Below are positions 866-62,677 of a DNA stretch of 64,000 nt, piece by piece. Position numbers and translations under genes: made by a program. The notes beneath the pieces were generated by a model. That model saw nothing but the letters and a program-made list of their open reading frames with translations. It made no database searches and had not been told where the DNA came from. The stretch covers positions 868,001 to 932,000 of the forward strand of contig JACRNY010000001.1 in the NCBI GenBank assembly GCA_016214695.1. The letters are read 5' to 3'. Positions within the stretch are counted from its first letter, which is position 1; each line of letters opens with the position of its first letter. Source of the stretch: Nitrosomonadales bacterium (GTDB taxonomy: Bacteria > Pseudomonadota > Gammaproteobacteria > Burkholderiales > Gallionellaceae).

Positions 866-2185
866 ATGACGGAAAGCACCAAGCACGAGCCGGGCAGCGC
901 ATTGTTCGCCCGCATCCAGCAGATGGTCGACGAGCGCGGCGTCGATATCCGCCCGCATCTGAGCGGCCATGCACTGCGTCTGGATTTCGCCGATGGGCAG
1001 CGCATCCTGATCAATATCGACCCGCAGACGCACAATGTGTGGGTGGCTGCACGTTCAGGCGGTGTCGAATACATCCATCATGATGGCCTGTGGCAGGCGC
1101 ACGACCATGGCGAGCTCTTCGCCAGACTGCGCGAACTCATCGAGCTGACCATCGCCAGCAATCCGCTCAATGCCCGCGCACCCGTGACCCAGCCGCAGCA
1201 AGCTCCCGAACATCCCGAACCCGCGATCTATTACGAAGCGAAGCAAAGTCACTGGCTGCGCAACGCGCTCATCATCCTGCTCGCCGGCATGATCGGTTTT
1301 TGGGCTGCACAAAGGCTGAATCCCCCGCAGGAGAAGACGGAGGAAGCGAAGCCGCAGCCGGATACCGTCTCGCTCAGCCAACTCGATCCCGGCCAGCAAT
1401 GCGAGGGCGGCTTTCCTGCCAATGGCAGCATCACCGTATTCCCCGAAAGCGGTTTGCGCACCGACGAAGTGAGCGACCCCGAGATCACCCTCCGGAACGA
1501 CCATGCCCATCCTGTGCTGCTGATCCTTTCTCCCCCCAACACCGTCATCCCCTCCATGTCGGTGCTGATCCACGCCAGGCAAAGCATCAGCCTGCACCTG
1601 CCGGCCGGGCAGTACGGCATGATGTTCGGTGTCGGCAGTGCGTGGTGCAATGCGCGGCGCGGTTTTTCCGACGGACAATTCCTGAAGTTCGACAAGTCGC
1701 TGAGCGTGGAAACGGACAAACCGATGCAGCTGACCCTGCAATCTTCCGGCCCCGGCATGGAGGATTTCCAGTTGTTCGTCAGAACCGCCGCTCCCGAAGT
1801 GGCACTGCCGCCACCGACCTTCGCCGGCGACGGCAGCATGGAGGTGCAGCGCCAGGCCAACGGGCACTTCTACCTGCCCGGCACGATAGAGAACGTCCCG
1901 GTCACCTTCATGGTGGATACCGGCGCCTCGGTCACCTCCATCTCCAGCGACATCGCGCAGCAGGCGGGCATCCGCAATTGCAAGGAGGTGCAATTCCAGA
2001 CCGCGAACGGCACGGCGACCGGCTGCATCGCCCTCGTCCCGCGCATGACGCTGGGCAATTTCACACTGCAGAACATCACTGTCGCAGTGATGCCGAACAT
2101 GGAGACCAACCTGCTCGGCGCGAACGTGCTGCGCAATTTTCAAGTTAGCCAGAGCGACAGCACCATGCTGATCGGCCGGCGTTAA
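866..2185 (+). CDS. Frataxin-like domain / membrane helix / retropepsin-like aspartic protease fusion, 439 aa
   Basis: Three parts are visible. Residues about 1-97 align by eye with the CyaY encoded immediately downstream (shared FADG, W/L-AA-R/K-SGG, DG-W and GELFA-L-EL blocks), so this is a frataxin-fold domain, but its first helix is much less acidic than in CyaY. Residues about 130-150 form one membrane helix with Arg/Lys before it, suggesting cytoplasmic N-terminus and periplasmic C-terminus. Residues about 335-430 carry FMVDTGASVTSIS and LLGANVLRNF, the hallmarks of single-Asp clan AA (retropepsin-like) proteases that act as dimers. Residues 160-330 are a periplasmic region I do not recognise. 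Iron sensing or iron-linked proteolysis would be speculation. Confidence 0.85.
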   Translation: MTESTKHEPGSALFARIQQMVDERGVDIRPHLSGHALRLDFADGQRILINIDPQTHNVWVAARSGGVEYIHHDGLWQAHDHGELFARLRELIELTIASNPLNARAPVTQPQQAPEHPEPAIYYEAKQSHWLRNALIILLAGMIGFWAAQRLNPPQEKTEEAKPQPDTVSLSQLDPGQQCEGGFPANGSITVFPESGLRTDEVSDPEITLRNDHAHPVLLILSPPNTVIPSMSVLIHARQSISLHLPAGQYGMMFGVGSAWCNARRGFSDGQFLKFDKSLSVETDKPMQLTLQSSGPGMEDFQLFVRTAAPEVALPPPTFAGDGSMEVQRQANGHFYLPGTIENVPVTFMVDTGASVTSISSDIAQQAGIRNCKEVQFQTANGTATGCIALVPRMTLGNFTLQNITVAVMPNMETNLLGANVLRNFQVSQSDSTMLIGRR

Positions 2186-2198
2186 GACGGGAACGGAT

Positions 2199-2510
2199 AT
2201 GGACGAAAGCGGATTCAAGGAACTGGCTGACGAGGTGTTCGAGCGCATCGAGGCGGCGATCGATGCCAGCGATGCCGATATCGAATATGACAGCAACGGC
2301 ACGGTACTGGAGATGGAGTTCGCCGACGGCAGCAAGCTCATCGTCAACCGCCATGTGCCGAACAGGGAGATCTGGCTGGCCGCCAAATCCGGCGGATTCC
2401 ATTACGCGATGGTGGACGGACGCTGGTTCAGCCTGCGCGACGGCAGCGAACTGTTCGCCAAGCTGGGTGAACTGGTGCAGATCGGTGCGGGAACGAAACT
2501 GGACTTCTAG
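2199..2510 (+). CDS. cyaY: Iron-binding frataxin homologue CyaY, 103 aa
   Basis: Bacterial frataxin, which binds iron and tunes IscS-dependent Fe-S cluster assembly in the cytosol. The 103-aa length is normal. The first helix is acidic (ELADEVFERIEAAIDASDAD), as expected for the iron-binding ridge, followed by the beta-sheet signature EMEFADGS...NR...EIWLAAKSGGFHY and a terminal helix. It lies 13 bp after the frataxin-protease fusion gene, so the two are probably co-transcribed and may derive from a local duplication of cyaY. Confidence 0.95.
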   Translation: MDESGFKELADEVFERIEAAIDASDADIEYDSNGTVLEMEFADGSKLIVNRHVPNREIWLAAKSGGFHYAMVDGRWFSLRDGSELFAKLGELVQIGAGTKLDF

Positions 2511-2629
2511 AGGGAAGGGGCCAAGCGGAAGGGATCTTTCATCTGGGAGGAGACTTAGGGAACCGCGTCTTGTCCGCTTGGCAGGACGAACTCTAGAGCT
2601 GTTTCACCTGTTTGGGAATGCGTCATATT

Positions 2630-2725
2630 GTCGCAGGCCTGGCGGCCTGGGGATGCATATCGGGCATATTGTGGCTCCGGCATCACATTCGGCCAAAGCC
2701 GAATATGAGCCTTCTCCGCAAAGCC
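2630..2725. repeat. 96-bp direct repeat, copy 1
   Basis: This 96-bp segment recurs at 2755-2850 with 6 differences by eye. Each copy contains the inverted repeat ATTCGGC-CAAA-GCCGAAT near its right end. It lies in the gap between convergent cyaY and the YgjP-like gene, where I find no gene; 2511-2629 shows nothing further. Confidence 0.9.
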
Positions 2726-2754
2726 CTGTCGCGCTTGCAGCACCACAAGGCTTT

Positions 2755-2850
2755 GTCGCAGGCTTGGCGGCCTGCGGATGCATATCGGGCATATTGTGGT
2801 TCCGGCGTCACATTCGGCCAAAGCCGAATATGAGCCTTCAACGCAAAGCC
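2755..2850. repeat. 96-bp direct repeat, copy 2
   Basis: Second copy of the 2630-2725 repeat, offset by 125 bp, with 29 bp of unrelated sequence between the copies. It ends 1 bp before the stop codon of the convergent YgjP-like peptidase gene. The conserved ATTCGGC/GCCGAAT hairpin could end transcription from either side, though there is no T-tract. Confidence 0.9.
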
Positions 2851-2851
2851 C

Positions 2852-3592
2852 CTATTCCGCTATTCCATAACCATGCAGCTCCGCCCGGCATCGTTTGTAT
2901 TCCGGGCAGGCGCTCTCCACCACTTTCCAGAACGCAGGCGAATGGTTCATCTCGACCAGATGCGCGAGTTCATGCACCACCACATAGTCGATCAGGTGCA
3001 GCGGCATCTTCACCAGTTGCCAGTTCAGCCTCACCACCCCCTGTGCGGTGCAGCTGCCCCACTGGGTGCGCGCCGTCGACAGTTTGATCTCGCGCGGAAC
3101 AACGTTCATCTGCAGCGCAAAGTGTTCCGCGCACTCCCTGAAAACCTGCAGTGCCTCGCTGCGATACCAGTGTGTCACTGCCTTTTCGATGGCTGCCGCT
3201 TCGGCCTCGGCGCCGACCGGCACATGCAGCACCTCGCCGTGCAGTTGCGCTGCCGCACCGCGCCTCTTCGGCGTCAGCAGCAGGGTGAATTCCTCGCCGC
3301 GGAAAGGGATGCGCGCGCCATCCTCCCAGCATATCGACGGCGCCTTCCGCGTTTGCCAGTCGTCCAGCTTGTCGACCACCCAGGCGGCCTTGTCCAGCAG
3401 CACGTTGTGCAGCCATTGCTCGGAAGCGCGCAGCGGTGCATTGACGGTGAGGCCGCGATCGTCGATGCGCAGGCCGATGCTGCGACGGTAGCCGCTGCGT
3501 TTCAAGGTGTAGGTGATGTCCTTGCCGGAAAGGAGGATGTTGCGTTGTTCGACGACAGGGGGAGGTGCTTTGCGACGTAATGCCTTGAACAT
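2852..3592 (-). CDS. YgjP-like zinc metallopeptidase domain protein, 246 aa
   Basis: Member of the DUF45/YgjP family, related to M48 peptidases and WSS1/SprT-like proteases. The C-terminal half shows WGSCTAQGVVRLNWQLVKMP then VVHELAHLVEMNHSPAFW, that is, the HExxH zinc site plus a downstream His as third ligand. The family has no well-established substrate. The start ATG overlaps the plsC stop (TGATG), which fixes the start and indicates an operon with plsC and gmhB. A longer upstream in-frame extension only reads plsC in the wrong frame. Confidence 0.88.
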   Translation of the reverse strand: MFKALRRKAPPPVVEQRNILLSGKDITYTLKRSGYRRSIGLRIDDRGLTVNAPLRASEQWLHNVLLDKAAWVVDKLDDWQTRKAPSICWEDGARIPFRGEEFTLLLTPKRRGAAAQLHGEVLHVPVGAEAEAAAIEKAVTHWYRSEALQVFRECAEHFALQMNVVPREIKLSTARTQWGSCTAQGVVRLNWQLVKMPLHLIDYVVVHELAHLVEMNHSPAFWKVVESACPEYKRCRAELHGYGIAE

Positions 3593-4296
3593 CAGCCGAG
3601 CTTGGTCATCTCGTTCTCGATCCAGTCCTCGACACGGCGGTTGATCTCCTCCGCCTTGAGGCCTTTCGGATCGATGGGTCGGCCGATGCTCATGACTATC
3701 GTGCCGGGGTGTTTGAGGAAGGCGTTGCGGCTCCAGAACTTGCCGGCGTTGTGCGCCACCGGCACCACCGGTGCACCGGTGCTCTCGCCCAGCATGGCAC
3801 CACCGATCTTGTACTTGCCGCGCACGCCGTAGGGCATGCGCGTACCCTCGGGGAAGATCACCACGCAGAAGCCGTTGTCCAGCCGGTCCTTGCCTTGCTC
3901 CAGCAACTGCTTCATCGCCTGCTTGCCTTTGCTGCGATCGATGGCGATGGGGCTGGTCACGGCCAGTCCCCAGCCGAAGAACGGCAGCCACAGCAGCTCG
4001 CGCTTGAGCACCCACACCTGGTCGGGGAACACGGTTTGCAGCGCGAACGTCTCCCAGGCCGACTGGTGCTTGCACATCACGATATGCGGCTGTGCCGGGA
4101 TGTTCTCCGCGCCGCGCACTTCCATCTTGATGCCGCAGATCACACGCAACAGCCATATCGTGCTGTAAGCGAGTCCGGAAGCGATACGGTAGCGCGTGTG
4201 CGGCGGCAGCGGGAAGACGAACACCACCAGCGAGGCGTAGATCGGCGTCCACACCAGCTGCACGATGAAGAAGATGAGGGAGCGGATCAATGTCAT
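3592..4296 (-). CDS. plsC: 1-acyl-sn-glycerol-3-phosphate acyltransferase, 234 aa
   Basis: Inner-membrane enzyme that acylates lysophosphatidic acid to phosphatidic acid in phospholipid synthesis. Seen: an N-terminal hydrophobic segment (IFFIVQLVWTPIYASLVVFVF), the acyltransferase block KHQSAWETF, the IAIDRSKGKQA segment and the substrate-binding IFPEGTRMPYG. The catalytic motif reads H-x4-E rather than the classic H-x4-D; I recall this variant in betaproteobacterial paralogues. It overlaps gmhB by 4 bp (ATGA) and the YgjP-like gene by 1 bp, so all three are probably translated from one mRNA. Confidence 0.92.
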   Translation of the reverse strand: MTLIRSLIFFIVQLVWTPIYASLVVFVFPLPPHTRYRIASGLAYSTIWLLRVICGIKMEVRGAENIPAQPHIVMCKHQSAWETFALQTVFPDQVWVLKRELLWLPFFGWGLAVTSPIAIDRSKGKQAMKQLLEQGKDRLDNGFCVVIFPEGTRMPYGVRGKYKIGGAMLGESTGAPVVPVAHNAGKFWSRNAFLKHPGTIVMSIGRPIDPKGLKAEEINRRVEDWIENEMTKLG

Positions 4297-57185: not shown

Positions 57186-58619
57186 TTAAGCTTTAGCGGG
57201 AACGGCGCCGGAAGAACGCAGAGCGCTCGCCTGACGCACGGTCATCACGATGTTGAACAGGGCGATCCAGGTACCGAGGTTGAAGATCATGCCGCCAATC
57301 GCACGCATCGCGTAGTACGGATGCATCGCGGAGACAGACTCAACGAAGGTATAGGTCAGCGTGCCGTACTCGTCGTAATCACGCCACATCAGGCCTTGCA
57401 TGATGCCGGAGACCCACATCGCCACGACATACACCACGGTACCGATAGTCGCCAGCCAGAAGTGGACGTTCACCAGACCTTCGGAGTACATCTTTTCCAC
57501 GCCCCACAGCTTCTTCACCATGTGGTACATCGCGCCGTAGGCAACCATCGCCATCCAGCCCAAAGCACCAGAGTGCACGTGACCAACAGTCCAGTCAGTG
57601 TAGTGCGACAGAGCGTTAACGGACTTGATGGACATCACCGGACCTTCGAAGGTGGACATCGCGTAGAACGCCAGCGCCACAACCAGGAAACGCAGGATGT
57701 AGTCGGTACGCAGCTTGTCCCATGCACCGGACAGAGTCATCATGCCGTTCATCGCACCGCCCCAGGACGGGATGATCATCGCCAGAGAGACGGCAGCACC
57801 GAGGGAGCCGGTCCAGTCAGGCAATGCTGTGTATTGCAGGTGGTGCGCGCCCAGCCAAACGTAGCCGAATGTCAGCGCCCAGAAGTGCAACACGGAAAGG
57901 CGATAGGAGAACACCGGACGACCGGCTTGCTTAGGCACGAAGTAATACATGATGCCCAGGAAGCCGCCAGTCAGGTAGAAACCAACCGCATTGTGACCCC
58001 ACCACCATTGCACCATGGCATCTTGCACGCCGGTGAACACGGAGAAGGAGTTGGTCAGGCTGACCGGAATGGCCATGCTGTTGACCACATGCAGGTACGT
58101 GATCATCACGATCATGCCCATGGTGAACCAGTTGGAAACGTAGATGTGGGAAGTCTTGCGAATCGCCACGGTCATGATGTGATTCAGACCGAAGGACAGC
58201 CACACCACGGCAATCAGGATGTCGATCGGCCACTCCAACTCGGCATACTCCTTGCCGGAAGTCATGCCCAGCGGCAAAGTGACGACTGCCGAGACGATGA
58301 TCAGGTTCCAGCCCCAGAAAGTGAACCACGCCAGACCATTGCTCCACAGCTTGGTGCTACCGGTGCGCTGCACCATGTAGAAACCGGTTGCCATCAGAGC
58401 ACAGCCGCCGAATGCGAAGATCACCGCGTTGGTATGCAGCGGGCGCAAACGACCGAACGTGATCCATTCCATATCAAAGTTCAAAAACGGCCAAGCCAAT
58501 TCCGATGCGATATACACACCGATCAGCGTACCTACCACTGCATAGATGGCAGCCGCGATGGTGAACCATCGGACGACTTCCATATCGTACTTTACTGGTG
58601 TCGCTTGCGTAGCTTCCAC
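57186..58619 (-). CDS. ccoN: cbb3 oxidase catalytic subunit I, CcoN, 477 aa
   Basis: Haem-copper oxidase catalytic subunit with 12 helices that reduces O2 at high affinity. Haem and CuB ligands are in [38 protein letters not shown] and [16 protein letters not shown], including the HxxxY of cbb3 types. GTG 58619 follows GGAGGAG at 6 bp; this start gives the usual length and avoids the non-homologous extension from an ATG at 58790. Confidence 0.96.
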
Positions 58620-58701
58620 AGTAGTCTCCTCCTCGAGCAAGTTAACAATAAATGCGCCAAACACACTCTGCAGCTGCCGAATGTGTCTAACGCACCTTTC
58701 C

Positions 58702-58723
58702 CTTACAGCTTTCTTACAGCTTT
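58702..58723 (-). promoter_or_regulatory. Tandem 11-bp direct repeat upstream of ccoN
   Basis: CTTACAGCTTT occurs twice head to tail (58702-58712, 58713-58723), 83-104 bp upstream of the ccoN start. On the ccoN strand it reads CTGTAAG-AAAG-CTGTAAG, with the 11-bp spacing typical of OmpR/PhoB-class response-regulator sites. No FNR box is visible. The rest of the 313-bp gap 58620-58933 shows nothing else clear. Confidence 0.4.
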
Positions 58724-58933
58724 CTAAAAACGGCGCAATCATGGCATAGCCCTCGGCGACAAGTAAAGCCAAAGTTGGTTCCGAAACCAAGCATACCCAA
58801 GCGATTGCGTCGGGTTATCGTGCTGCAAGCAGGAGGGAATGCCGGAGAAAAACCACAATACGGGATCCGGTTTGAATCAGTTATCTCACATGCAGCTTTG
58901 AGACTTCAATTTCAAGAAAAGGCGAGAAGGGGA

Positions 58934-58968
58934 TGGAGCGGGTGAACGGGATCGAACCGTCGTATGCA
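58934..58968 (-). tRNA. tRNA-Gly (CCC), 3' half (exon 2)
   Basis: Thirty-five bases with T-arm, acceptor strand CACCCGC, discriminator T and encoded CCA. They join exactly to the 39-nt 5' half at 61582-61620 to make a 74-nt tRNA-Gly with anticodon stem GCAGC/GCTGC, acceptor stem GCGGGTG/CACCCGC and anticodon CCC. The group II intron separates the halves. Confidence 0.9.
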
Positions 58969-59091
58969 GGAGGGTAAGGAGGCGACCTCGCGGTCACCCC
59001 CTCCCCTAAGAACCGAACGTGCAAGTTTCCCTGCATTCGGCTCAAGCAACCCAGAAACATTGCTCAATGAAGAACAATGCCAGCGGGGTCT

Positions 59092-60726
59092 TTACTCGTT
59101 AACGTGATGTTGTTGATGACAATTCGGATGCAGCAACTCCAGATTTGAGAGCACATCCGAGCCTCCTTGAGACCGCTTAACCCGATGGTGCAAATGCCAC
59201 CCCGTATCGCGCGTAATCTTTTGAAGACAGATCGGGCAAAGCCCTTCCTGCCACCACCACAACCAACGTAATTTTCTGCGTCCTTCGAGCGCCATATCCA
59301 TCTTGCGGGCAAGCCGCTTGGTGAAATACTCGTCGAACGCCGGGTCATAAGGATTCGCTTCTGCTTGCACCTTGATATGAGCCCGTTTCCGGAACTCACC
59401 CAGGATGGGCAAAATCTTCTCCCTCTCGGCAAAGCGCCAATCGCGCCCCTTGGAACTCACGAAGTAACGCTGTTTGACCCATCTTTTCCCCTTGTTAGGG
59501 TGACGACGAACCGCCCAGCGCCACAACATTTGCCAGATCAAGTGATCACATTTAGCGAAGGTGCGCGACGCCATTTGGCTTCGATGATAGTTTGCCCAGC
59601 CGCGAATCATCGGCATAAGTTTGTCTATCACCTCTTCCTGCTTGGCTGTTCGCATTGCCCCCATTGTTTCGCGCAACTTGGTCATGAATGCTTTGACGTT
59701 TTTCGTCGAAGGCCGCGTGAGCAGCATCCGATTGAACCGCCTTACATTCCATCCCAGAAAGTCGAACCCTTCCGTCACGTGAGTGATGGTGGTTTTCTTC
59801 TCTGAGAGAACCAATCCTCTTGCGGCCAGAAACTGCACCACCAGAGGTTTGACCCGCTCTTCCAGCAACTCTCGCGAGCTGCCGGTAATCACGAAGTCAT
59901 CCGCGTAACGCACCAAATGGACTTTCGCCTCACGCGCCTGCCGGACTGTGTGAAACAGCCCTTTAAGCTCGCGCTGCAATCCATCGAGTGCCATGTTAGC
60001 CAGCACCGGGGAAATGATGCCACCCTGCGGTGTCCCGGCATTGGTTGGGAACAACTTTCCCGTCTCTATAAACCCCGCTTTCAGCCACCTCCTTAGGATG
60101 CCTCTGTCCATACAGACATTGGCCGCCAGCCAGTCATGACTGATATTGTCGAAACACCCCTTGATGTCACCCTCAAGCACCCACTGCGGCGACGCTTTTC
60201 GTCCAAGCGCATTTCGCACTTGTTCAATGGCATCGGCAGTTGAGCGCTCACGGCGGAAGCCGTATGAGTGCGAATCTCCGGTTGTCTCGGCGACAGGATC
60301 TAATGCGAGTAAGTGCAACGCCTGCATCGCCCGGTCGCGCATGGTTGGAATGCCCAGTGGGCGCTTGTCACCATTTGCTTTGGGGATATAGATACGTCGC
60401 AGCGGTAACGGTCTGTATCTCTTGCTGCCGAGACCTTGGACTGCTTCCCACTTTTCTTCTGGAGTGCTCCAAGTTTTACCATCTACACCCGGAGTTTTCC
60501 GACCACGGTTTTCCGTCACCCGCTTCACGGCCAATGCTTTCGCACTGGTGGATTGGGTTAGGAGCCGTTGCAGAGAGCGGGCTTTACGCCACTCGCCTGC
60601 TTTTACCGCTTTCGCGATTCGCGTCTGTAACCTCGCAACAGATTGGTGTGCGTCGGACCAATGAATCTGGTGCCAACTATGCCAGCCTGCGGAGGCAACA
60701 TCGCCGTTTTGATACCTAGCGTCCAT
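59092..60726 (-). CDS. ltrA: Group II intron reverse transcriptase/maturase with HNH endonuclease, 544 aa
   Basis: Intron-encoded protein for splicing and retrohoming. RT domain blocks: RPLPLRRIYIPKANGDKRPLGIPTMRDRA, EGDIKGCFDNISHDW, GTPQGGIISPVLANM and the active-site VRYADDFVI. Domain X follows (MIRGWANYHRS), then a C-terminal HNH module with CPICLQ, LHHRVKRSQGG and NLELLHPNCHQQHH. It looks complete with no frameshift. ATG 60726 is chosen; the frame runs upstream through the tRNA-Gly gene, which cannot be protein. Confidence 0.95.
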   Translation of the reverse strand: MDARYQNGDVASAGWHSWHQIHWSDAHQSVARLQTRIAKAVKAGEWRKARSLQRLLTQSTSAKALAVKRVTENRGRKTPGVDGKTWSTPEEKWEAVQGLGSKRYRPLPLRRIYIPKANGDKRPLGIPTMRDRAMQALHLLALDPVAETTGDSHSYGFRRERSTADAIEQVRNALGRKASPQWVLEGDIKGCFDNISHDWLAANVCMDRGILRRWLKAGFIETGKLFPTNAGTPQGGIISPVLANMALDGLQRELKGLFHTVRQAREAKVHLVRYADDFVITGSSRELLEERVKPLVVQFLAARGLVLSEKKTTITHVTEGFDFLGWNVRRFNRMLLTRPSTKNVKAFMTKLRETMGAMRTAKQEEVIDKLMPMIRGWANYHRSQMASRTFAKCDHLIWQMLWRWAVRRHPNKGKRWVKQRYFVSSKGRDWRFAEREKILPILGEFRKRAHIKVQAEANPYDPAFDEYFTKRLARKMDMALEGRRKLRWLWWWQEGLCPICLQKITRDTGWHLHHRVKRSQGGSDVLSNLELLHPNCHQQHHVNE

Positions 60727-60741
60727 ATCAACCTCCGATAT

Positions 60742-60815
60742 TGGAGCGGGTGAAGGGGATCGAACCCTCGTCACTTGCTTGGGAAGCAAGAGCTCTACCA
60801 TTGAGCTACACCCGC
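60742..60815 (-). tRNA. tRNA-Gly (CCC), intact, inside the group II intron
   Basis: A complete 74-nt cloverleaf with CCA: acceptor GCGGGTG/CACCCGC, D-arm GCTCAATGGTAGAGC, anticodon stem CTTGC/GCAAG around TTCCCAA (anticodon CCC) and T-arm with GTTCGATCC. It shares the acceptor stem and anticodon with the interrupted tRNA but differs in the D, anticodon and T stems, so it is a divergent copy. A TATTAT-like -10 lies about 45 bp upstream. It ends 15 bp before the maturase start. Confidence 0.93.
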
Positions 60816-61581
60816 GTAATCCCGAAGGGAATAGACGCATCACCCCCTAGGGGATAATACATCTATCCCCGTTGGGTACGATTTACAGACCTGTCTCGCG
60901 ACAGATCACCTAGTGGAAGTCTGCACGCTTTCGCGTTGGGGCGATCATTTCATCCCCTATCTGCACCATTACAGCACAGCATTCGCTTTCTCCACCTTCC
61001 TCTACCCACTATGGTATCGGACGACCTTGCGGTCGCCTTTGTCCGCCAGACTGGCCGGACACCATATTGGGCTTACCACGTTCCGCACAAGTAACAAGAG
61101 TTGGGAAGGTTCCGCCTTTTCGCCGGTGATCGTATGTCAGCGTATTTGCACCAAGCAAACAAATAACCGATCACGTGCCATTTTGGCCAGAGCCCGATAC
61201 TGCAAGTTGCGTTTGGCTCTACAAGCTTGACGACGTTTAACAGCGGTTCACATTACATTAACCATCCAACTCAGCCTAGTGCCTCATCCGGGTGCAACTC
61301 CCGAAATCACACCAAACCCCTCGCGGGGCTTGATATACCCCGTAAGGTGGCTACATTGTCAGAGCGCTTAGCACCCCACCGTTACCAGTGGCGCACTGCT
61401 CCTAGACTACGAGGGGCTGAACCCTCGGTTTTGTCAGTTTCCGATGCAGCTAGAAACAGCAAAACAATTACTTATGCAGCTTACGCCGCGTTCGCAATCT
61501 TCCCGGTGTTCTGGGTCAACTGCTGTTTAAATGCTAGGCAATTAAAGTCCTAGCGGTAATAACGCACGACTCGTGTCGCAC

Positions 61582-61620
61582 GCTTGGGAAGCTGCCGTTC
61601 TACCATTGAACTACACCCGC
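61582..61620 (-). tRNA. tRNA-Gly (CCC), 5' half (exon 1)
   Basis: Thirty-nine bases: acceptor strand GCGGGTG, D-arm TAGTTCAATGGTAGAAC, anticodon-stem strand GCAGC, loop TTCCCAA and the first two bases (GC) of the 3' stem strand. The intron starts immediately after. A TAGAAT -10 box lies about 20 bp upstream on the minus strand (61639-61644). Confidence 0.9.
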
Positions 61621-61659: not shown

Positions 61660-61863
61660 GTGATCAGCATCAACATCAACGGCGAACCACGCCAGTTTTC
61701 CGGCACCCTGACCGTCGCCGCACTCATCGACGAGATGGGTTTGACCGGCAAGCGTGTCGCCCTCGAACGCAACGGCGAGATCGTGCCACGCAGTACGTTT
61801 TCCACCCAGCAATTGTCCGATGGAGACAAGCTGGAGATCGTCGTCGCCGTCGGCGGCGGCTGA
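61660..61863 (+). CDS. thiS: Sulfur carrier protein ThiS, 67 aa
   Basis: Ubiquitin-like carrier that ends in Gly-Gly (VVAVGGG), which is adenylated and thiocarboxylated to give sulfur for the thiazole of thiamine. The beta-grasp pattern [28 protein letters not shown] is typical. Start is GTG 61660; the length is right. thiG begins 19 bp after the stop. Confidence 0.94.
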
Positions 61864-61882
61864 CACTCACCAGGTACACAAC

Positions 61883-62677
61883 ATGAACGACAAATTGATC
61901 ATCGCAGGAAAGAGCTACTCGTCGCGTCTGCTCGTCGGCACCGGCAAGTACAAGGATTTCACGGAGACACGTGCGGCGCTGGACGCCAGCGGCGCCGAGA
62001 TTGTCACGGTCGCGATACGCCGCACCAATCTCGGCCAGAACGCCAACGAGCCCAACCTGCTCGACGCCGTACCGCCGTCCAAGTTCACCTACCTGCCTAA
62101 CACAGCGGGCTGCTACACCGCCGACGATGCGGTGCGCACGCTGCGTCTTGCGCGCGAACTGCTTGACGGCCACGGCTTGGTGAAACTGGAAGTGCTGGGC
62201 GATCCACAATCGCTGTATCCCAACGTGATCGAGACTATCGCCGCCGCCAAGACGCTGGTCGCGGAAGGCTTCCAGGTCATGGTGTACACCTCGGACGACC
62301 CCATCGTCGCGAAGCAACTGGAAGACATCGGCTGTGTCGCCATCATGCCACTGGCCTCGCTGATCGGCTCCGGCATGGGCATCCTCAACCCGTGGAACCT
62401 GCAACTGGTGATGGAACGCGTGAAAGTGCCGGTGATCGTGGATGCGGGCGTGGGCACGGCTTCCGATGCGGCCATCGCGATGGAACTGGGTTGCCACGGC
62501 GTGCTCATGAACACCGCTATCGCCGGAGCGAAAGACCCGGTACTCATGGCCTCGGCCATGAAAAAGGGTGTCGAAGCCGGACGCGAAGCATTCCTCGCCG
62601 GGCGCATGCCGAAGAAACTCTACAGCGCCAGCCCGAGTTCGCCGACCGCAGGCATCATCTCCTCGACACGCAGCTGA
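61883..62677 (+). CDS. thiG: Thiazole synthase ThiG, 264 aa
   Basis: TIM-barrel enzyme that forms thiazole phosphate from 1-deoxy-xylulose 5-phosphate, dehydroglycine and ThiS-thiocarboxylate. Seen: [12 protein letters not shown], the Schiff-base lysine in [18 protein letters not shown]-like segment [15 protein letters not shown] and [20 protein letters not shown]. An upstream in-frame ATG at 61754 lies in thiS. Overlaps trmB by 1 bp. Confidence 0.96.

Follow-up and report, generated by a model that had tools for sequence, protein, structure and literature searches.

A group II intron clade that occupies tRNA-Gly(CCC) genes and carries a tRNA-Gly(CCC) copy of its own

Why would an intron that splits a tRNA gene carry an intact tRNA of the same kind? 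This question was raised by a 64,000-nucleotide (nt) stretch of DNA from a Nitrosomonadales bacterium of the family Gallionellaceae (assembly GCA_016214695.1, contig JACRNY010000001.1, positions 868,001 to 932,000; called the window here), in which a group II intron lies between the two halves of a tRNA-Gly(CCC) gene. A first-pass annotation of the window had described the split gene, the intron and a second tRNA-Gly(CCC) inside the intron, and had proposed that the internal tRNA compensates for the interrupted host gene when splicing is incomplete. That proposal was partly borne out, as the conserved anticodon, the paired stems and the status of the internal gene as sole contiguous copy all fit it. 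Two results went beyond it: most of the internal (cargo) copies lack the insertion target of the intron, and the intron clade is dedicated to one site. Judging from the sequences, we consider it probable that the intron is a site-specific retroelement with a built-in, mostly insertion-resistant replacement for the tRNA-Gly(CCC) gene that it interrupts.

One intron clade in one tRNA gene

ARAGORN accepted the joined exon halves of the window as a 74-nt tRNA-Gly(CCC), in agreement with the first-pass annotation, and the joined sequence was identical at 74/74 bases to the intact genes of five same-genus genomes. The split gene is flanked by a thiG-like and a ccoN-like gene. In three of four same-genus genomes (L109-L111), the orthologous site was empty and an intact, identical tRNA gene lay between thiG and ccoN; in the fourth (L112), thiG adjoined an intact tRNA gene and ccoN gave no match. 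The GTGCGAC start of the intron conformed to the GUGYG-type 5' end, and matches to Rfam families RF02012 and RF00029 confirmed the annotated group II intron and its domain V. The intron-encoded protein was complete, as annotated, with reverse transcriptase (RT), maturase and HNH regions that matched RVT_N, RVT_1, GIIM and HNH in Pfam and group_II_RT_mat (TIGR04416, above cut-off) in NCBIfam. A local assembly fault, an objection that the first-pass annotation had itself raised, was ruled out because the same arrangement recurred in dozens of other assemblies and because empty sites exist in the same genus. One of these assemblies is a 3.45-Mb record titled as a Dechloromonas chromosome (L041). 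The precise insertions, the empty sites and the mostly lower divergence than in the flanks (described below) are only indirect signs that the window element may splice and retrohome.

The relatives of the intron were the best 80 of 247 from a protein scan of genome contigs, and the protein tree contained 78 rows after 3 of 81 were removed as short stretches. The introns at the tRNA site formed a single branch in this tree (41/78 rows, support 99/98). We examined 43 members of the clade (the window, L023-L062, L064 and L102); L089, whose contig begins within the protein gene, was excluded from the count. A readable internal tRNA-Gly(CCC) was present in 42/43 members. Specifically, it was called directly in 38 members and recovered in L048, L051, L053 and L059, although in the L048 copy the encoded CCA end is missing where an inserted element adjoins it. 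The remaining internal tRNA (L033) was recognisable and interrupted only by Ns, and hence no member without an internal tRNA was found among the 43. The first-pass annotation had suggested a search of other genomes for such introns and had named relatives without the tRNA as the result that would speak against its idea; the search went the other way, and a chance tRNA insertion in one intron was ruled out by the 42 carriers.

A joined host tRNA was obtained in 36/43 loci, and ARAGORN identified 36/36 as tRNA-Gly(CCC), all cut after TTCCCAAGC at the same nucleotide. In the other seven loci (L033, L046, L048, L050, L051, L053 and L059), joining was prevented by Ns, by the end of a contig, by a nested intron or by an inserted element. 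The clade occurred mainly in beta- and gammaproteobacteria; based on record titles, most hosts belonged to Gallionellaceae, Rhodocyclales, Burkholderiales and gammaproteobacteria, and cultured carriers include Duganella alba FT9W and Piscinibacter defluvii SH-1. The locus L057 is filed as Planctomycetota, and this label may be a binning error because the locus lies on a 4.7-kb contig and has the same intron protein, without a difference, as L062. An exact match to the 17-nt exon-intron junction occurred in 2/399 genomes of the order, including the window's own, in a search that variant junctions would escape. Carriage on a plasmid, phage or viral contig was tentatively rejected: the best protein identities among the matches listed were 58.0%, 54.3% and 56%, respectively, although the plasmid search also gave at least 35 records at 60-80% identity.

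The intron-borne tRNA and the insertion target

The internal tRNA of the window was called by ARAGORN and matched Rfam with 71.8 bits (E 1e-13). As the first-pass annotation had stated, it has the same anticodon as the host tRNA and different stems; we located the difference in the anticodon arm. It ends 15 nt before the ATG of the protein gene, and the distance from tRNA to start codon was 15-18 nt in 37/37 relatives measured, with GGAGG or GGGGG in between (the start codons of L037, L054 and L058 were assigned by eye). The predicted fold of its surroundings contained a cloverleaf, and internal and host tRNAs alike had a cloverleaf, a CCC anticodon and an encoded CCA. Among 21 distinct internal tRNAs, 432/441 stem cells were paired and two-sided changes occurred at 8/21 pairs. 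The anticodon loop was TTCCCAA in 74/74 host and internal rows, and fold and anticodon were retained across intron proteins with identities down to ~61%. These comparisons indicate that the internal tRNA is under constraint. The idea that it simply duplicates the host tRNA of its own locus was rejected, since only two strings were common to the distinct host tRNAs (23) and the distinct internal tRNAs (21), and these occurred in different loci. L048, in which the 5' exon and the internal copy are alike, came near to being such a case.

We defined the insertion target as the 11-mer CTTCCCAAGCT, in which ten bases from the end of the 5' exon are followed by base +1 of the 3' exon. The target was present in 33/36 interrupted hosts and in 92/105 contiguous genes from 102/232 genomes of the class; any intron-borne copies among these 105 genes could only lower the latter figure. 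In the cargo, the target was present in 4/38 internal copies, or 6/42 with L048, L051, L053 and L059 included. Thus, 36/42 internal copies, the window's own among them, were without it. Among distinct full sequences, the target occurred in 3/21 internals versus 92/105 contiguous genes (Fisher p 7e-11), and among distinct 15-mers in 2/13 versus 26/36 (p 7e-4). The counts share phylogeny and are not independent; for the distinct 15-mers, p is ~0.001. The difference between each host tRNA and its own internal tRNA was strongest at pair 29-41, which differed in 31/36 loci, compared with 0.17 of comparisons among distinct hosts. Five internal copies disrupted the 5' exon part of the target instead, with AACC for AAGC.

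On the intron side, the candidate exon-binding site 1 (EBS1), GCTTG, was exact in 24/39 aligned introns, and the A that precedes it was present in 39/39. No reliable candidate for EBS2 was found, and a search for EBS3 by covariation gave 17 candidate columns, none of them convincing.

The internal copy also appeared to be the only one of its kind. In 40/40 carrier genomes searched, there was one contiguous tRNA-Gly(CCC) pattern match, and by eye its letters were those of the intron-borne copy; the search covered carriers other than those of L033, L057, L062 and L089, and the pattern would miss any CCC gene whose T-arm is unusual. For annotation, this means that the only pattern-found contiguous tRNA-Gly(CCC) of 40 genomes sits within an intron. 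In six carriers, a second glycine tRNA was matched and proved to be tRNA-Gly(UCC); the window genome has a tRNA-Gly(UCC).

What the internal tRNA may do for host and intron

If the internal tRNA is a replacement gene, the element would work as follows. The homing site would be the anticodon arm of tRNA-Gly(CCC), and domain IV would carry the intron's own working copy of this tRNA. In most cargo copies, a changed anticodon stem would break or remove the recognition sequence (CTTCCCAAGC followed by T) and would spare the tRNA fold and the CCC anticodon. Insertion of the intron would interrupt the host gene, and splicing of the intron RNA would restore the host tRNA. The internal copy would supply the same tRNA regardless of splicing success, and target-free cargo should escape invasion by the intron. 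We infer splicing, expression and rescue from sequence comparison: both tRNAs would be made, the changed stem would block insertion and the cargo would be kept because it supplies the tRNA.

Several points weigh against this reading. It is weakened most by the probable dispensability of tRNA-Gly(CCC), which we assume because the strict CCC pattern matched just 102/232 genomes of the class (a lower bound, as the pattern also misses the window's own copy) and because tRNA-Gly(UCC) probably reads GGG too. The intron insertion might therefore be tolerable without help, and the need for rescue is weakened; GGG accounted for 8/138 glycine codons in four genes of the window. Six internal copies (L037, L039, L045, L048, L052 and L053) retained the target, and the shared phylogeny of the target counts was noted above. 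The three of 36 hosts without the 11-mer carried +1 A, which indicated that T at +1 is not an absolute requirement. The candidate EBS1 was inexact in 15/39 introns, so that, together with these hosts, its pairing is suggestive only. If RNase P cut at the internal tRNA, the intron RNA would be severed. No promoter-like site for the internal tRNA was found on its strand; one was found on the opposite strand, as in shuffled sequences, and a promoter of its own was rejected on these grounds. Finally, the tight spacing between tRNA and start codon and the conserved ribosome-binding motif fit the intron's own expression equally well.

The last point leads to the main rival explanation, in which the internal tRNA serves the intron: RNase P and tRNase Z would cut the tRNA and thereby release the protein mRNA just ahead of its ribosome-binding site, or the tRNA fold would replace the protein-bound domain IVa platform. 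The tight spacing favours this idea a little. The tRNA has a fixed position directly 5' of the protein gene in 37/37 relatives, a cloverleaf is part of the predicted fold, and a sister clade of introns (described below) has no tRNA at that place. However, any tRNA would do for such a role, yet every readable member carries tRNA-Gly(CCC), which matches the interrupted gene; the sister clade copes without a tRNA, and the loss of the insertion target is left unexplained. We consider this rival unlikely as the sole explanation, and a role in intron expression could act alongside rescue. It is improbable that the tRNA is a passive passenger of marginal function, captured once and inherited with drifting stems. 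Its restriction to one clade and one position, and the probable dispensability of the CCC tRNA, would suit a passenger, but fold and anticodon were kept, with double changes, across proteins with identities down to ~61%, and a decayed internal tRNA was found in none of the 42 that were read. In addition, several unlike anticodon stems, together with a difference in the arm of L024 (see below), point to turnover under constraint rather than drift. Host and cargo tRNAs are partial direct repeats, and the changed stem of the cargo might avert homologous recombination between them rather than insertion. We regard this as very improbable, because the strongest difference lies at pair 29-41 and because the acceptor and T-stem, which are equally open to recombination, remain more alike within loci.

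Spread, sister introns and known systems

At four-fold degenerate sites in Gallionellaceae, the intron protein gene was less diverged than thiG in 28/28 pairs and less diverged than ccoN in 14/15 pairs. For example, the divergence between the window and L023 was 0.03 for the protein gene and 0.38 for thiG. The exception was the pair L024-L026 (0.31 for the protein gene versus 0.26 for ccoN), which counts against the reading favoured here. Because the protein gene was mostly less diverged than its neighbours, the element seems to spread from species to species, entering the orthologous gene each time.

The cargo did not always share the history of its intron. The 5' part of L024 was 85-100% identical to the window intron in every compared segment outside the internal tRNA. 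The internal tRNA of L024 was identical to those of L044 and L046, whose proteins were 72-75% identical to the window's, and its anticodon arm was where it differed from the window. In two cases, the host tRNA of one locus was the cargo of others: the host tRNA of L042 equalled the cargo of L050 and L064, and that of L045 equalled the cargo of L052. We tentatively propose, as an idea that may well prove wrong, a natural home-and-rescue system: an intron lineage devoted to one tRNA gene, with a recoded, uninvadable copy that is renewed by anticodon-arm exchange and on which the host depends for its only contiguous tRNA-Gly(CCC).

To our knowledge, a gene disruption paired with a target-resistant rescue copy is otherwise known as an engineered design. 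In engineered home-and-rescue drives, the rescue copy is recoded against the target. An excerpt of PMC7968924 describes such drives as homing into a gene and bringing a rescue copy. The likeness to the introns studied here is the interrupted target gene (36/36 joined loci) and a copy aboard that would serve for rescue. Unlike the drives, which are synthetic, nuclease-based and built for animals and an essential target, the window element is a retroelement that occurs naturally in a bacterium and whose target is probably not essential. If the replacement reading is correct, a selfish element would be known from nature that both breaks a host gene and brings a rescue copy resistant to its own insertion. 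Group II introns would then have another way of inhabiting a housekeeping gene, besides splicing alone, and it would become testable whether mobile introns persist through cargo that makes their loss difficult. No paper seen in literature searches described a bacterial group II intron with a tRNA inside; Michel et al. 2007 (Biochimie, cited in PMC4465626) is a likely place for an earlier mention.

The sister clade of the protein tree was located mostly at the groEL stop codon, whereas the window intron lies in tRNA-Gly instead and is without the groEL site. We analyzed 37 sister loci (within the range L063-L101), one of which was too short for a reading of the 5' end. In 27 of the remaining 36, GTGC was immediately preceded by ATGATGTA; a groEL-like tail lay upstream in 26 of the 27, so that the first G of the intron completes the stop codon. 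The upstream frame of L101 was not groEL-like despite ATGATGTA. ARAGORN found a tRNA in 0/37 sister loci, and none was seen upstream of the protein gene in 12 loci inspected by eye. This distribution suggested that the tRNA clade acquired its internal tRNA at the base. The introns at the groEL stop were a large group that included loci from Pseudomonas, Pseudoalteromonas, Shewanella, Citrobacter, Halomonas and others, and an excerpt of PMC4465626 mentions an intron at groEL in Azotobacter vinelandii. The groEL-stop introns of Azotobacter and relatives are similar to the tRNA clade in their GTGCGAC-type start and in being specialised for a single housekeeping-gene site. They differ in the stop-codon site and the absence of a tRNA, and the site itself, rather than a spare copy, would avert harm. 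Thus, both clades are mostly found in housekeeping genes, the sister clade by way of a harmless spot and the tRNA clade by way of a spare copy.

Other elements are known to occupy bacterial tRNA genes. According to excerpts of PMC4390854 and PMC4853749, bacterial tRNA introns self-splice (PMC4390854) and group I introns lie in tRNA-Arg and tRNA-Leu genes (PMC4853749). These introns likewise interrupt tRNA genes, but they have a group I ribozyme, and no internal tRNA copy is described in those excerpts. Elements of the ICEclc family insert at tRNA-Gly genes, one of which is tRNA-Gly(CCC) (PMC7466150, in part). Their insertion site is thus also a tRNA-Gly gene, but they enter the 3' end of the tRNA through site-specific recombination, in contrast to reverse splicing, and a full spare tRNA is unnecessary for them. 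Within our clade, the internal tRNAs of L048 (L153-L154) and L059 (L155-L156) contained foreign DNA of ~22 kb and ~89 kb, respectively, as judged from coordinates, with the 3' end left, and L051 (L164) had the same junction at one end, its inserted element being split over contigs. The tRNA-adjacent proteins of the inserted elements gave tyrosine recombinase or integrase matches, all below curated cut-offs. These three cases resemble the integration of an integrative and conjugative element at tRNA-Gly(CCC), as covered in part of PMC7466150. Integrative elements in the internal tRNA would split the intron in two.

Layout of the window element and minor observations

The coordinates of the element and its flanks are collected in Table 1.

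Table 1. Features of the intron locus in window coordinates; all parts of the element lie on the minus strand and the thiG-like flank on the plus strand (D, domain; ORF, open reading frame)
Feature	Coordinates	Strand	Basis
Host tRNA-Gly(CCC) 5' half (5' exon, ends TTCCCAAGC)	61582..61620	-	Sequence; ARAGORN on joined halves
Group II intron, 2,613 nt, GTGCGAC start	58969..61581	-	Sequence, Rfam
Ribozyme core D1-D4, Rfam group-II-D1D4-7 (RF02012)	61280..61428	-	101.9 bits, above gathering score
Candidate EBS1, GCTTG	61222..61226	-	Suggested by sequence; potential pairing with 5' exon CAAGC
A next to candidate EBS1	61227	-	Potential pairing with +1 T of 3' exon
Intact intron-borne tRNA-Gly(CCC), anticodon arm unlike that of host tRNA	60742..60815	-	ARAGORN, Rfam
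Shine-Dalgarno-like GGAGG in gap between internal tRNA and protein gene	60732..60736	-	By eye
Intron-encoded protein, 544 amino acids, RT + maturase + HNH	59092..60726	-	Pfam, NCBIfam
Domains V + VI, Rfam Intron_gpII (RF00029)	58969..59045	-	68.4 bits, above gathering score
Host tRNA-Gly(CCC) 3' half with encoded CCA (3' exon, starts TGC)	58934..58968	-	Sequence; ARAGORN on joined halves
ccoN-like gene, downstream; flanks orthologous empty site	57186..58790	-	ORF
thiG-like gene, upstream; flanks orthologous empty site	61754..62677	+	ORF

A short, hairpin-like inverted repeat, GTGCGAC...GTCGTGC, was seen by eye at the opening of the window intron (61581-61563). It may be connected with a 5' insertion that an excerpt of PMC4465626 mentions for the lineage. 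In the same-genus locus L114 (G154; 1483-3902), a partial second tRNA-Gly(CCC) lay ~2.3 kb from the full one in the opposite orientation, and it is perhaps the end of an island. In L046 (5700-8130; Massilia sp. Bi118), a second intron with RT motifs recognised by eye was seemingly located inside domain V of the clade intron, and the 3' half of the host tRNA was intact beyond this nested intron.

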